This document shows, one piece after another, positions 50,249-53,707 of a stretch of DNA of 64,000 nucleotides. The translations under genes were made by a program, and so were the position numbers. A model generated the notes under the pieces. It had not been told where the DNA came from, searched no databases, and worked only from the letters and a program-made list of their open reading frames with translations. The DNA lies in assembly GCF_040111675.1 (NCBI RefSeq), contig NZ_CP157794.1:2997501-3061500 (forward strand), written 5' to 3'. How positions within the stretch are numbered: position 1 is the stretch's first letter; the number at the start of each line of letters is the position of its first letter. This stretch comes from Salinarimonas sp. GTDB taxonomy: Bacteria > Pseudomonadota > Alphaproteobacteria > Rhizobiales > Beijerinckiaceae.

Positions 50249-50605
50249 GTGACCGCTCGCAGGCCCTTCGCAACCGCCTCCTTCAAGCCCCTCCTCGCGG
50301 CAGCCGCGGCGGCCCTGCTGCTGGCCGCCTGCACCCAGACCGGTGGCCCGACGGCCTCCGCGTCCGGCCCGGCGGTAGCCGCGGCGAGCCTCGACCTGCC
50401 GGGGTCCGGCGCCTGCGCCCGGGAGATCCGCGCCTTCCGCGACCTGCTCGACCGGGACAAGGAGACCGGCTTCGTCGGCCCCACCGTCTACCGCGACGCC
50501 ACGCGCGACCTCGCCGGCCCGGCCGCGACCTGCCGCGCCGGGAACGACGCGGCCGCGCGCGCCGAGCTGCGGGCGGTGAAGACGCGCTACGGCTATCCCG
50601 CCTGA
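50249..50605 (+). CDS. small hypothetical lipoprotein
   Basis: A 118-residue protein with a type II signal peptide: basic start ([13 protein letters not shown]), hydrophobic core and lipobox LLAAC (cysteine at about residue 28), so it is a likely outer- or inner-membrane lipoprotein. The mature part ([22 protein letters not shown]) is short with two further cysteines. No family is recognised. GTG start. Its 3' end overlaps the convergent NUDIX gene by 13 bp. Confidence 0.7.
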
Positions 50606-51312
50606 TCCGCGAAGGCGCGCTCCAGGAACAGCGGCATGAAGGGCGGCGTGCGCGCCGGGTCGAGCGCGTCGGCGCGGCGCACGACGTGGATGTCGGCGAG
50701 CTCGGGCTCCTGCTGCGCGGCCAGCGTCGCGCGGATGCGCGCGGCCAGCGGCTCGGCGTCGCCGAAGGCCTGGACGTGCCGCAACAGCGCGCAGAAGCCG
50801 CCGATGCGCACGATCGTCCAGCCGGTCGCCTCGACCTCGTGCGGCGCGATCCCGGTCTCTTCTTCCAGCTCCCGCAGCGCCGAGCCGGCGAGATCGACCG
50901 ATCCGTCGGGGCGCACGTCCTCCATGTCCGGCGTGCCGCCGGGAAAGTAGAGCCGCCCGGCATTCGCCGTGTGCGCGCCCATCTCGCCGACGAGATAGGC
51001 GCCGTCGCGCGACCGCAAAGCCGCGAGGGCGAAGCCGTTGACGACGCTCGGGTCCGGGAATCCCTCGGCCTTGAAGTGGAGCAGCGTCGCGTAATCGACC
51101 GGGAAGTAGGTCGCCGCATAGACGCCATCCGAGACCTGCGGGGCGCGCGCCATCAGCACGCGGCCGTTGAACAGGCGCGGCTTCTCGGCGCGGCGCCGCT
51201 CCCAATGCGCCGCGATCGCCTCCCGGTTCGCCTCGCGCCACTCCCAGACGACGTGCGGATCGTAGCGCGCGTCGATCCGCGCCACGTCGGCCAGAATCGG
51301 CCCGTCGCTCAT
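50593..51312 (-). CDS. NUDIX hydrolase
   Basis: A 239-residue protein. The Nudix box is interrupted but readable at 125-154: GGTPDMEDV, then an insertion, then [12 protein letters not shown], keeping the REXXEE metal-binding residues. It likely hydrolyses a nucleoside-diphosphate-linked compound; substrate unknown. Its ATG (51312-51310) lies exactly at the left end of the IS110 element: the element's first three bases CAT recreate the start codon lost by insertion. Before the insertion this gene would have followed phzF with an ATGA overlap. Confidence 0.85.
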
Positions 51313-51322
51313 TGGTGCACCT

Positions 51323-51535
51323 TCGGGCTGGCGGATGCGGAGCCGCGGAGCGGCGTAGTATTCGCCAGCCCGAGCGCCTGCCGCGACGGCCGGCGTCGCT
51401 TGCCCTTCGAGGGCCCGTATGAGACCCGCCGCGCGGCAGGTGCCGGGAGGACCGGACGGACCACGGGGTGTAGCGCCTGAGCCTGCCAGCCGGAGCGCCT
51501 TCCAATGAGCGATCCGCACGACCTCCCGGCTCGGG
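51323..51535 (+). ncRNA. putative IS110 bridge RNA
   Basis: A 5' stem TCGGGCTGGCG/CGCCAGCCCGA (51323-51333 with 51363-51373) is followed by two stem-loops. Loop 1: outer stem CCTGCCGCG/CGCGGCAGG (51377-51385, 51432-51440), left guide CGTCGCT (51394-51400) identical to the left flank 51303-51309, inner hairpin GCCCT-tcg-AGGGC, right guide CGTATGAG (51416-51423) complementary to CTCATACG at 52798-52805. Loop 2: outer stem GCCGGGAGG/CCTCCCGGC (51442-51450, 51522-51530), left guide CACGGGGTGT (51462-51471) identical to 52788-52797, right guide CCAATGAG (51502-51509) complementary to CTCATTGG at 51308-51315. This is the target-loop/donor-loop plan known for IS621. RNA ends are not known. Confidence 0.75.
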
Positions 51536-51566
51536 TGAGGGTACACCGAACCGGGAGACGTCGCCT

Positions 51567-52772
51567 ATGCCTTTCACTGTTGGTTTCGACTGGGGCGGCG
51601 CGGGCCATGCGGCCTGCGTCCTCGACGAGACGGGTGCGGTCCGCGCACGCCTCGACGTCCCGCACACCGCCGCCGGCCTCGCCAAGCTCGTGGCCGCGCT
51701 CGCGCGCATCGCGCCCGTCGGCGAGATGCCGGTGGCGATCGAGCGCCCGTCCGGCCTCGTCGTCGACACGCTCGTCGCCGCCGGCCATCCGGTCGTGCCG
51801 ATCCACCCGAACGTCGTGAAGGCCTGCCGTCCGCGCTATCGCGCCGCCGGCGGCAAGTCCGATACGGGTGACGCCTACATGCTCGCCGATATCCTGCGCA
51901 CCGACGGGCATCGCTTCGCCCCGCTGCGCCAGGCCTCCGACGCGGTCAAGGCGCTGCGCGCCCTCGTGCGCGGGCGCGACGACCTCGTCGCCACGCGCGT
52001 CGGCCTCGCAAACCAGCTGCGCAGCCTGCTCGAAAGCTTCTGGCCGGGCGCCGCCGCGATCTTCGCCGACGTCGACAGCCCCGTCGCCCTCGCCTTCCTC
52101 GCCCGCTACCCCACGCCCGAGAGCGCCGCACGACTCGGCGAGAAGCGCATGGCCGCCTTCATGGCCCAGGCCCGCTACAGCGGCCGCCGCAGCGCCGCCG
52201 AGCTCCTCGCCCGCCTGCGCGCCGCGCCGATCGGCCTCGCCGGCCGGGACGAGAGCGAGGCCAAGGGCGAGATCGTGCGCGCCCTCGTCGTCGCCCTCGA
52301 GCGCATCGTCGCCGCGATCCGCGACCTCACCGCCCGCATCGAGCACGACGTCGCCGAGCTGCCCGACGGCCGCATCGTCATGTCCTTCCCGCGCGCCGGC
52401 CGCATCAACGCCGCCCAGATCCTCGCCGAGATCGGCGACGACCGCGCGCGCTTCCAGACCGCAGACCAGCTCGCCGCGGAGGCCGGCGTCTGCCCCGTCA
52501 CCCACGCCTCCGGAAAAAGCAGGGGCGTCGTCTTCCGATGGGCCTGCAATCACCGTCTGCGCGCCGCCCTCACCTGCTTCGCCGACAACTCCCGCCATGC
52601 CTCCCCCTGGGCCGCCGACGTCTACATGCGGGCCAGGCAGCGCGGATGCAGTCACCCCCACGCCGTCCGTATCCTGGCACGCGCCTGGATCCGCATCCTC
52701 TGGCATGCCTGGCGAGATCGAGCCGAATACGAACCCGCACGCCATCTCGCCGCGCAAAAATGCGCCGCGTAG
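51567..52772 (+). CDS. IS110-family DEDD transposase/recombinase
   Basis: A 401-residue recombinase. The RuvC-like DEDD residues are Asp8 (GFDWGGAG), Glu59 (AIERPSG), Asp99 and Asp102 (KSDTGDAY). The C-terminal Transposase_20 domain, with the second catalytic serine region, is visible in MSFPRAGRINAAQILAEIGD and GVCPVTHASGKSRGVVFRWACNHRLR. The reading frame is intact, so the element may still be active. Upstream sequence carries the putative bridge RNA; its promoter was not identified. Confidence 0.93.
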   Translation: MPFTVGFDWGGAGHAACVLDETGAVRARLDVPHTAAGLAKLVAALARIAPVGEMPVAIERPSGLVVDTLVAAGHPVVPIHPNVVKACRPRYRAAGGKSDTGDAYMLADILRTDGHRFAPLRQASDAVKALRALVRGRDDLVATRVGLANQLRSLLESFWPGAAAIFADVDSPVALAFLARYPTPESAARLGEKRMAAFMAQARYSGRRSAAELLARLRAAPIGLAGRDESEAKGEIVRALVVALERIVAAIRDLTARIEHDVAELPDGRIVMSFPRAGRINAAQILAEIGDDRARFQTADQLAAEAGVCPVTHASGKSRGVVFRWACNHRLRAALTCFADNSRHASPWAADVYMRARQRGCSHPHAVRILARAWIRILWHAWRDRAEYEPARHLAAQKCAA

Positions 52773-52798
52773 AAAAACAGAGGTGGACACGGGGTGTC

Positions 52799-53707
52799 TC
52801 ATACGTGGAACTCGCCGCGCGCCACCACGACCGCGCCGCCGCCGATCTCGGCGGAGGCGAGGGCGCCGTTCTCGATGACGAGCTGGAGCGAGATGACGCT
52901 GCGCCGGCCCATCTCGACGCCCTGCTCGATGAGCACGTCGTGCGTGCCCTCCCCCATCGGCTCGTGCTCCATGAGCGCGCCGGCGAAGGCGGCCGCGGCG
53001 GAGCCGGTGGCGGGGTCCTCCATCACGCCGGCGCCGAGCCCCATGCCCACCATCCGGGCGCGGAAGGCGAGGCCCGCGCCGAACGGCGCGCGGGTGTAGA
53101 CGTAGGCGGCCGGATGCGTGCTGTCGCCGAACACCGCCTCGAACTGGGCGCCGGGCTTGATCCGCGCCAGCGCCTCGACGGAGCGCACCGGCACGAGGTC
53201 GTAGGGTACGCCCGCCGTGTGGCGGCTCGGGAGGTGGCGGTCGAAGCCGATGTCCTCCGGATCGAGCCCGAGCGCCATGGCGCAATCGGCCGAGCTCTTG
53301 CCCTCCCCGAACGGCACCGGCAGCTTCGGCAGGTGAAAGCGGGCGCGACCCTCGCGAGGGCCACGGGTCTCGGCGACGCAGGGAACGACCCCGACCTTTT
53401 CCTCGAGCCCGAAAGCCTGCGCGTCGGCGCCGCCGGAGCCGTGCTCCAGCGCGAGCAACACGGCCGAGCCGACGGTGGGATGCCCGGCGAAGGGCAGCTC
53501 CAGGACCGGCGTGAAGATGCGCAGCTGCGCGCGATGACGATCGCTCTCCGGCGGCAGCACGAAGACCGTCTCGGAGAGGTTGAACTCGCGGGCGATGCGC
53601 TGCATCGCGGCCGTGTCGAGGCCGTCCGCGTCGAGCACGACGGCGAGCGGGTTGCCTTCGAGGGCGGTCTCGGTGAAGACGTCGAGGACGGCGTAGCGGC
53701 GGGGCAT
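52799..53707 (-). CDS. PhzF-family isomerase/epimerase-like protein
   Basis: A 302-residue protein of the PhzF (phenazine biosynthesis-like) family, which has a diaminopimelate-epimerase fold. RRYAVLDVFTETALEGNPLAVVLDADGL and FNLSETVFVLPPES (with the conserved Glu) are the typical start; FAGHPTVGSAVLLA and MEDPATGSAAAAFAGALM are further signatures. Members isomerise small metabolites; there is no phenazine cluster here, so the substrate is unknown. The stop codon TGA uses the T of the right core CT of the IS110 element; the gene is otherwise intact. Confidence 0.9.
   Translation of the reverse strand: MPRRYAVLDVFTETALEGNPLAVVLDADGLDTAAMQRIAREFNLSETVFVLPPESDRHRAQLRIFTPVLELPFAGHPTVGSAVLLALEHGSGGADAQAFGLEEKVGVVPCVAETRGPREGRARFHLPKLPVPFGEGKSSADCAMALGLDPEDIGFDRHLPSRHTAGVPYDLVPVRSVEALARIKPGAQFEAVFGDSTHPAAYVYTRAPFGAGLAFRARMVGMGLGAGVMEDPATGSAAAAFAGALMEHEPMGEGTHDVLIEQGVEMGRRSVISLQLVIENGALASAEIGGGAVVVARGEFHV

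Follow-up and report, generated by a model that had tools for sequence, protein, structure and literature searches.

A bridge-RNA-type IS110 element that sits at ATGA gene overlaps and carries a stop-free antisense frame in Salinarimonas sp.

Within a 64,000-nucleotide stretch of the Salinarimonas sp. genome (RefSeq assembly GCF_040111675.1, contig NZ_CP157794.1, forward-strand positions 2,997,501 to 3,061,500; hereafter the window), we analyzed an IS110-group insertion sequence that lies between two intact, co-directional host genes (Table 1). Its assignment to this group, proposed in an initial annotation made from the DNA letters, is supported by the recombinase it encodes: the two Pfam domains PF01548 and PF02371 both exceed their cut-offs, and the family profile matches the solved structures of the IS621 recombinase (8wt6, E 8.6e-19) and of ISCro4. 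As a single sequence, the recombinase found no match among the solved structures. Outside the recombinase gene, the element comprises a left end of 257 nt and a right end of 25 nt. Seven copies reside in the genome, 99.9-100% identical and differing at no more than two bases, and all seven have CT at both junctions, with flanks of the form ...CGCT-IS-CTCAT....

Table 1. Features of the IS110-group element and its surroundings (window positions).
Feature	Position	Strand	Basis and remarks
IS110-group insertion sequence	51310..52797	+	1488 bp, CT core at each junction uncounted; sharp boundaries in seven genome copies
IS110 recombinase, 401 aa, DEDD (RuvC-like) and Tnp domains	51567..52772	+	PF01548 E 1.2e-32; PF02371 E 4.2e-16
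Left CT core; left target half CGTCG-CT	51308..51309	+	CT at both junctions of seven copies
Right CT core and right target half CATACG	52798..52805	+	Flank comparison, seven copies
Left end with predicted bridge RNA, non-coding on +	51310..51566	+	Fold z -5.4; covariation in 11 relatives
Bridge RNA 5' hairpin	51323..51373	+	Fold
Target-binding stem-loop	51374..51443	+	Fold; helices 3 and 4 of covariation set
Left target guide (LTG) CGTCGCT	51394..51400	+	Equals left flank 51303-51309; covaries across 29 guide pairs
Right target guide (RTG) CGTATGAG	51416..51423	+	Complement of right flank 52798-52805; covaries
Target-loop handshake guide AC	51424..51425	+	Pairs with donor T7 and G6; donor position 7 fits 29/29 distinct guide pairs
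Donor-binding stem-loop	51444..51529	+	Fold; helices 5-8 of covariation set
Left donor guide (LDG) CACGGGGTGT	51462..51471	+	Equals right tip 52788-52797
Right donor guide (RDG) CCAATGAG	51502..51509	+	Complement of CT and CATTGG, 51308-51315
Donor-loop handshake guide CG	51510..51511	+	Pairs with target G7 and C6; target position 7 fits 29/29 distinct guide pairs
Stop-free antisense frame, 497 codons, host ATG (52802-52800) to TGA (51311-51309)	51309..52802	-	Reading; phase and openness conserved in relatives
Element-supplied ATG (51312-51310) and upstream AAGGTG, Shine-Dalgarno-like	51310..51323	-	Left tip read outward, GAAGGTGCACCAATG
Downstream host gene, NUDIX, intact, starts on element-supplied ATG	50593..51312	-	PF00293
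Upstream host gene, PhzF-like, intact; TGA overlaps the ATG opening the antisense frame	52799..53707	-	PF02567 E 3.4e-57

The left end is predicted to specify a bridge RNA of the kind that guides IS621 and the IS110 group (Durrant 2024 PMC11208160; Hiraizumi 2024 PMC11208158). Its fold is more stable than that of all 200 shuffles (z -5.4 for the whole 257 nt, -3.6 for 51320-51545) and reproduces the anatomy described in the initial annotation, namely a 5' hairpin followed by a target loop and then a donor loop, the order seen in IS621. That reading had been staked on covariation in the stems, which we found: in an alignment limited to 11 alpha- and betaproteobacterial relatives, pairing is kept in 91.7% of cells and 18 of the 50 stem pairs show changes on both sides, a result matched by none of 500 shuffles and nowhere approached by slid registers. 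All four guides proved correctly placed on the sequence, including the left donor guide, which matches over ten bases and, as had been noticed, contains no core base. The loop guides that equal the right tip and the complement of left tip plus core confirm the donor programme ACGGGGTGT-CT-CATTGG, and where the tips of relatives read CACAGGGTGT or CACCGGATGT, the donor loop is altered to match. An Rfam scan of the region matched no bridge RNA model; its ASdes match was below the cut-off, lay within the recombinase gene and was taken as chance.

The target guides were compared with the flanks of the genome copies. The left flanks read ...CGTCGCT (four copies), ...GCTCGCT, ...TCTCGCT or ...CGCCCGCT, and the right flanks CTCAT(A/G)(C/T)(G/C). 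Near the core, all seven agree with the guides; the A/G position is read by a U-A or U-G pair, with a G-U wobble in four copies, and matching is concentrated in about five LTG bases and five RTG bases adjoining the core. Mismatched flanks beside unchanged guides, named beforehand as the finding that would overturn the proposal, did not turn up, and the programmed target CGTCG-CT-CATACG is refined to CGTCG-CT-CAT(A/G)CG. We then extended the comparison to relatives, which were gathered by searching genome contigs, plasmids and an actinobacterial order and belong to Alpha- and Betaproteobacteria and Actinomycetota; in all, 29 distinct guide pairs were available at 46 junctions. Guides match their own flanks at 279.7 of 377 positions, compared to 190.6 (sd 8.2) when guides are swapped among elements of the same core class (z 10.8; 0 of 5000 permutations as high). 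Examples are GTCTTTGGT/CCCGTGAC beside GTCCTTGGT and GTCACGGG, GCGAGCGCT beside an identical GCGAGCGCT, and CGATCGAG beside CTCGATCA. The handshake bases, known from the IS621 structures (Durrant 2024 PMC11208160; Hiraizumi 2024 PMC11208158) and overlooked in the initial annotation, follow the same logic: position 7 pairs in 29 of 29 guide pairs in both loops, as A:T, T:A, C:G or G:C, and position 6 in 23 and 15 of 29 in the two loops. Given guide-flank covariation and handshake pairing, the bridge RNA is as well supported as sequence allows, and the guide, target and handshake rules drawn from the 29 pairs extend the known ones to elements with recombinases sharing about 40-76% identity with the 401-aa enzyme. 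A class-wide search at E 1e-90 covered 384 other genomes without turning up a close relative, and at the DNA level 100 nearer relatives gave no copy beyond the element's own genome.

Two observations on the relatives concern the history of guides and ends. In one actinobacterial genome, near-identical copies carry two target guide pairs, TGTGCCGGT/TGCATGAC and TTCGTCGGT/ACGATGAC (L071, L082 and L085 vs L086, L087 and L088), a difference that points to recent natural reprogramming. In L025 (1224-1263) and L093 (two tandem GCGCTCATAAGGCAACCTCC left tips), left tips are tandemly repeated beside the element, as if a copy had been left by an earlier insertion or excision.

The nature of the target, likewise missed at first, becomes apparent on the opposite strand, where it reads CGYATGAGCGACG. 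Written as CGTCGCTCAT(A/G)CG, the target corresponds to the stop/start overlap (A/G)TGAGCG(AC) of two consecutive genes. In every one of the seven copies, the element sits precisely where two co-directional genes overlap as ATGA: the ATG starts the gene leading off from the left junction, and the TGA, offset by one base, ends the gene that reads toward the right junction. Both coding sequences remain whole, and each of the 14 flanking genes has Pfam domains, the pairs being PhzF then NUDIX, a VapB-like antitoxin then PIN, NUDIX then MFS, a histidine kinase then an NtrC-type regulator, MarR then an OmpR-type regulator, a sugar epimerase then RmlC, and an OppB-like then an OppC permease. In two sister species, the site is a contiguous, uninterrupted pair of the same genes with an ATGA overlap. 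Of the seven copies, L002 is the one between the antitoxin gene and the PIN-domain toxin gene. The background was estimated from the window and 20 sampled stretches of this genome, 462 kb in all. Of the 70 CGCTCAT sites there, 11 are such overlaps; of the 49 sites with a guide score of 10 or more out of 15, 10 are. At these rates (about 16-20%), seven of seven would have a probability near 2e-6 to 2e-5. The excess may stem from insertion preference or from survival.

In the copies and relatives, the left tip provides the start codon of the downstream gene as CAT or CAC, read ATG or GTG, and the TGA of the upstream gene sits in the right flank. Outside the seven copies, our gene calls are based on open frames and GC3; for Streptomyces plasmids, independent annotation also has the downstream gene beginning exactly at the left junction. 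A right-truncated relative on the Mesorhizobium amorphae plasmid pM0123d (L096) is located between sctT and an HrcU-type gene of a type III secretion operon, and the HrcU-type gene begins at the left tip.

The third feature that had escaped notice is an antisense open reading frame (ORF) that crosses the whole element in phase, without a start codon of its own: its 497 codons run from the host ATG, and its terminal TGA overlaps the downstream ATG. Relatives that target such NTGA overlaps are nearly all open from end to end in this frame, with lengths of 1476-1542 bp that are nearly all multiples of three, and hold about 6-22 stops in the other two antisense frames. In L038, L095 and L097-L100, the stop is a TAA or TAG one codon earlier and the start overlap is kept. 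The phase is also conserved across the structured RNA: all 23 NTGA elements have a left-end length of 2 mod 3, and in 19 of them the left end is stop-free in the antisense frame, three of the other four having the terminal TAA/TAG. When the left end, from the junction up to the recombinase register, is divided at the right target guide and the right donor guide, five phase combinations occur, with the same total in every NTGA element and L084 alone breaking it; because the parts vary and the total is constant, insertions and deletions must have been compensated, some of the length variation falling in the recombinase N-terminus. Within the recombinase genes of 21 elements chosen for an unbroken frame, the codons that make an antisense stop (TCA, CTA, TTA) number 0 of 8355, compared to the 14-47 that other IS110 recombinases or host genes would lead one to expect. 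An earlier version of this comparison, using other fourfold boxes (P 2e-26), was replaced by the milder host-based expectation, since host genes, too, use CTA and TCA less often than other codons ending in A. Finally, L079 and L084 are nested within the NTGA clade (97/97 support; the tree's rows L152 and L162, based on wrong ORFs, are disregarded), target CTCGATC, and have lost the NTGA target, whole-element phase and openness together; at the junction of neither did we find the two-gene arrangement.

We consider it quite probable, from these sequence features, that bridge-guided insertion at gene overlaps, combined with the passage of ribosomes through the antisense frame, is the best explanation of the element. 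The element would move by bridge-RNA-guided recombination, its target loop pairing with CGTCG-CT-CAT(A/G)CG and its donor loop with the element's two ends in joined form, ACGGGGTGT-CT-CATTGG. As CT-CA is common to donor and target, the upstream TGA would stay intact and the downstream gene would gain the left-tip start codon. A ribosome finishing the upstream gene could start again on the host ATG that overlaps its stop, translate the approximately 497 stop-free antisense codons and end on the TGA overlapping the downstream start. The operon would in this way retain its translational coupling, and its mRNA would stay shielded from Rho-dependent polarity. In this view the long antisense frame is a passage and not a gene, and such translational bypass is proposed to make insertion into operons nearly harmless.

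Several observations weigh against this interpretation. The enrichment at overlaps is compatible with purifying selection after less specific insertion, only 25 of the 47 junctions of the whole set show the two-gene arrangement, and some relatives sit where no gene starts. Related elements share ancestry, such that our counts overstate independence. L072 and L078, left out of the 21 elements used for codon counting, hold six antisense-stop codons; they keep the phase and have 1 and 6 internal stops. GC-rich DNA leaves the antisense frame in codon register stop-poor anyway, with an average of 0.8 stop-making codons per 400 in other IS110 groups and none in that frame in groups A and B. The purine-rich, Shine-Dalgarno-like sequence that usually precedes the start codon in the left tip is the weakest feature of the set: pairing with the anti-Shine-Dalgarno sequence averages -8.0 kcal/mol in relatives vs -4.6 kcal/mol in shuffled sequences, but reaches -6.2 in the element at 51310-52797 alone, which is not significant, and two non-NTGA elements have similar scores.

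The antisense frame might instead be a real gene, with start codons being targeted so that a host signal translates a useful protein. The nearest precedent, by analogy, is IS900 of Mycobacterium avium subsp. paratuberculosis, an IS110-family element that, as described (PMC8141618, citing Doran 1997), has a full-length antisense ORF, hed, spanning the element without its own start and read as a gene, and inserts at translation start signals; a 1997 paper bears the title 'IS900 targets translation initiation signals ...'. The motif reported there is CATGNNNNNNTCTCCTT, a Shine-Dalgarno region plus start, and no such motif was found at the junctions of our seven copies. By that description, the two elements share the family, the whole-element antisense ORF without its own start and insertion at translation start signals, and differ in that ours targets an NTGA overlap and has a frame that must also end at the downstream start, with nothing to suggest selection at the protein level. 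The near-universal openness of the frame in NTGA-type relatives is what a gene would predict as well.

In a protein under selection, an excess of changes at codon position 3 is expected. Left-end substitutions at antisense codon positions 1, 2 and 3 were flat instead (202, 200 and 218 of about 1317 each; 0.153, 0.152 and 0.165), a test that RNA structure may blur. Over the recombinase, antisense identity is well below recombinase identity (e.g. 0.54 vs 0.75), the ORF product has no match in Pfam, and a product would need no exact end on the downstream start codon. We thus regard a coding role as unlikely. Because phase and openness are conserved without codon-position bias, selection seems to act on these properties and not on a product, most simply because ribosomes pass.

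A second alternative is that the guide happens to spell a common start-codon word (ATGAGC, ATGACC), the copies at overlaps being the survivors, and that the open frame is a by-product of high GC content and recombinase codon usage. Guide-matching sites are already start codons in about 60-75% of cases, and genes of the element's own genome have only 0.68 stop-making codons per 400, the antisense register of GC-rich genes being stop-poor; among other IS110 groups of the same genomes, seven have 2-7 stops and two likewise have none. It was this stop-poor register that called for the stricter tests of left-end phase, codon counts and the L079/L084 pair. Codon usage cannot cause the constant left-end phase (23/23) maintained through compensating indels, and neither the 0 of 8355 codons nor the joint loss of phase, openness and NTGA target in L079 and L084 fits a by-product. 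GC bias alone was rejected on the grounds of phase, stop-codon counts and compensated indels, and the broader by-product account appears decidedly improbable to us. That the guide matches arise by chance or from another cause, the left end being no bridge RNA at all, is barely credible: the predicted RNA draws no left-end match in Rfam, against which stand the guide-flank permutation, the stem covariation, the handshake pairing in 29 of 29 and the recombinase homology to IS621.

Among known systems, the element resembles IS621 in its DEDD/Tnp recombinase, its left-end RNA with a 5' hairpin, target loop and donor loop, its CT core, overlapping left and right guides, and handshake. It differs from accounts of IS621 and the IS110 group, whose elements often target repetitive elements (Durrant 2024 PMC11208160; Hiraizumi 2024 PMC11208158), in its NTGA overlap target, its open, in-phase antisense strand and its left donor guide without a core base. 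With the IS1111 group and seekRNA elements (PMC11187229) it shares an RNA-guided DEDD recombinase; unlike IS1111, which has subterminal inverted repeats and a right-end RNA (PMC11187229), it carries its RNA in the left end. The guide RNA is of a known kind and its way of use looks new; a literature search, with most subscription papers outside its coverage, found no description of an overlap-aimed bridge RNA or of translational bypass through an insertion sequence.

We lean toward a more general statement, namely that a bridge-RNA lineage of Proteobacteria and Actinomycetota has evolved translationally transparent insertion. Its components would be an RNA programme for the universal NTGA gene overlap, a start codon at the left tip that points outward and mostly follows a Shine-Dalgarno-like sequence, and an antisense frame, free of stops and conserved in phase, across the whole element including the structured RNA; this frame would carry ribosomes from the upstream to the downstream gene and have no role as a protein gene. 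If true, this would explain how an insertion sequence could enter the genes of a compact genome and leave the host unharmed: the guide is set on a generic operon spot where both genes survive and ribosomes pass. It would also show what natural selection can favour when bridge-RNA systems acquire their guides, with ATGA overlaps as a ready target class, and the unexplained hed ORF of IS900 could be read in a new and testable way.

Further observations concern other groups and the element's expression. A stop-free antisense frame along the whole element is also present in L152/L153 (group A, from the same genome) and L154-L156 (group B). Other IS110 groups (L176-L178 of group K, L174-L175 and L168-L170) end in CATAGGAGCAAC or similar, followed by the flank CATG/CGTG; they may insert upstream of sense-strand start codons and supply a ribosome-binding site. 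Neither a consensus promoter nor an intrinsic terminator was found inside the element at 51310-52797 or adjoining it. Expression of IS110 RNA from the circular form was reported earlier, and in many relatives TTGACA is conserved near the right tip (e.g. near 2720 in L037), possibly representing a candidate -35 box that is completed once the ends join in the circle.
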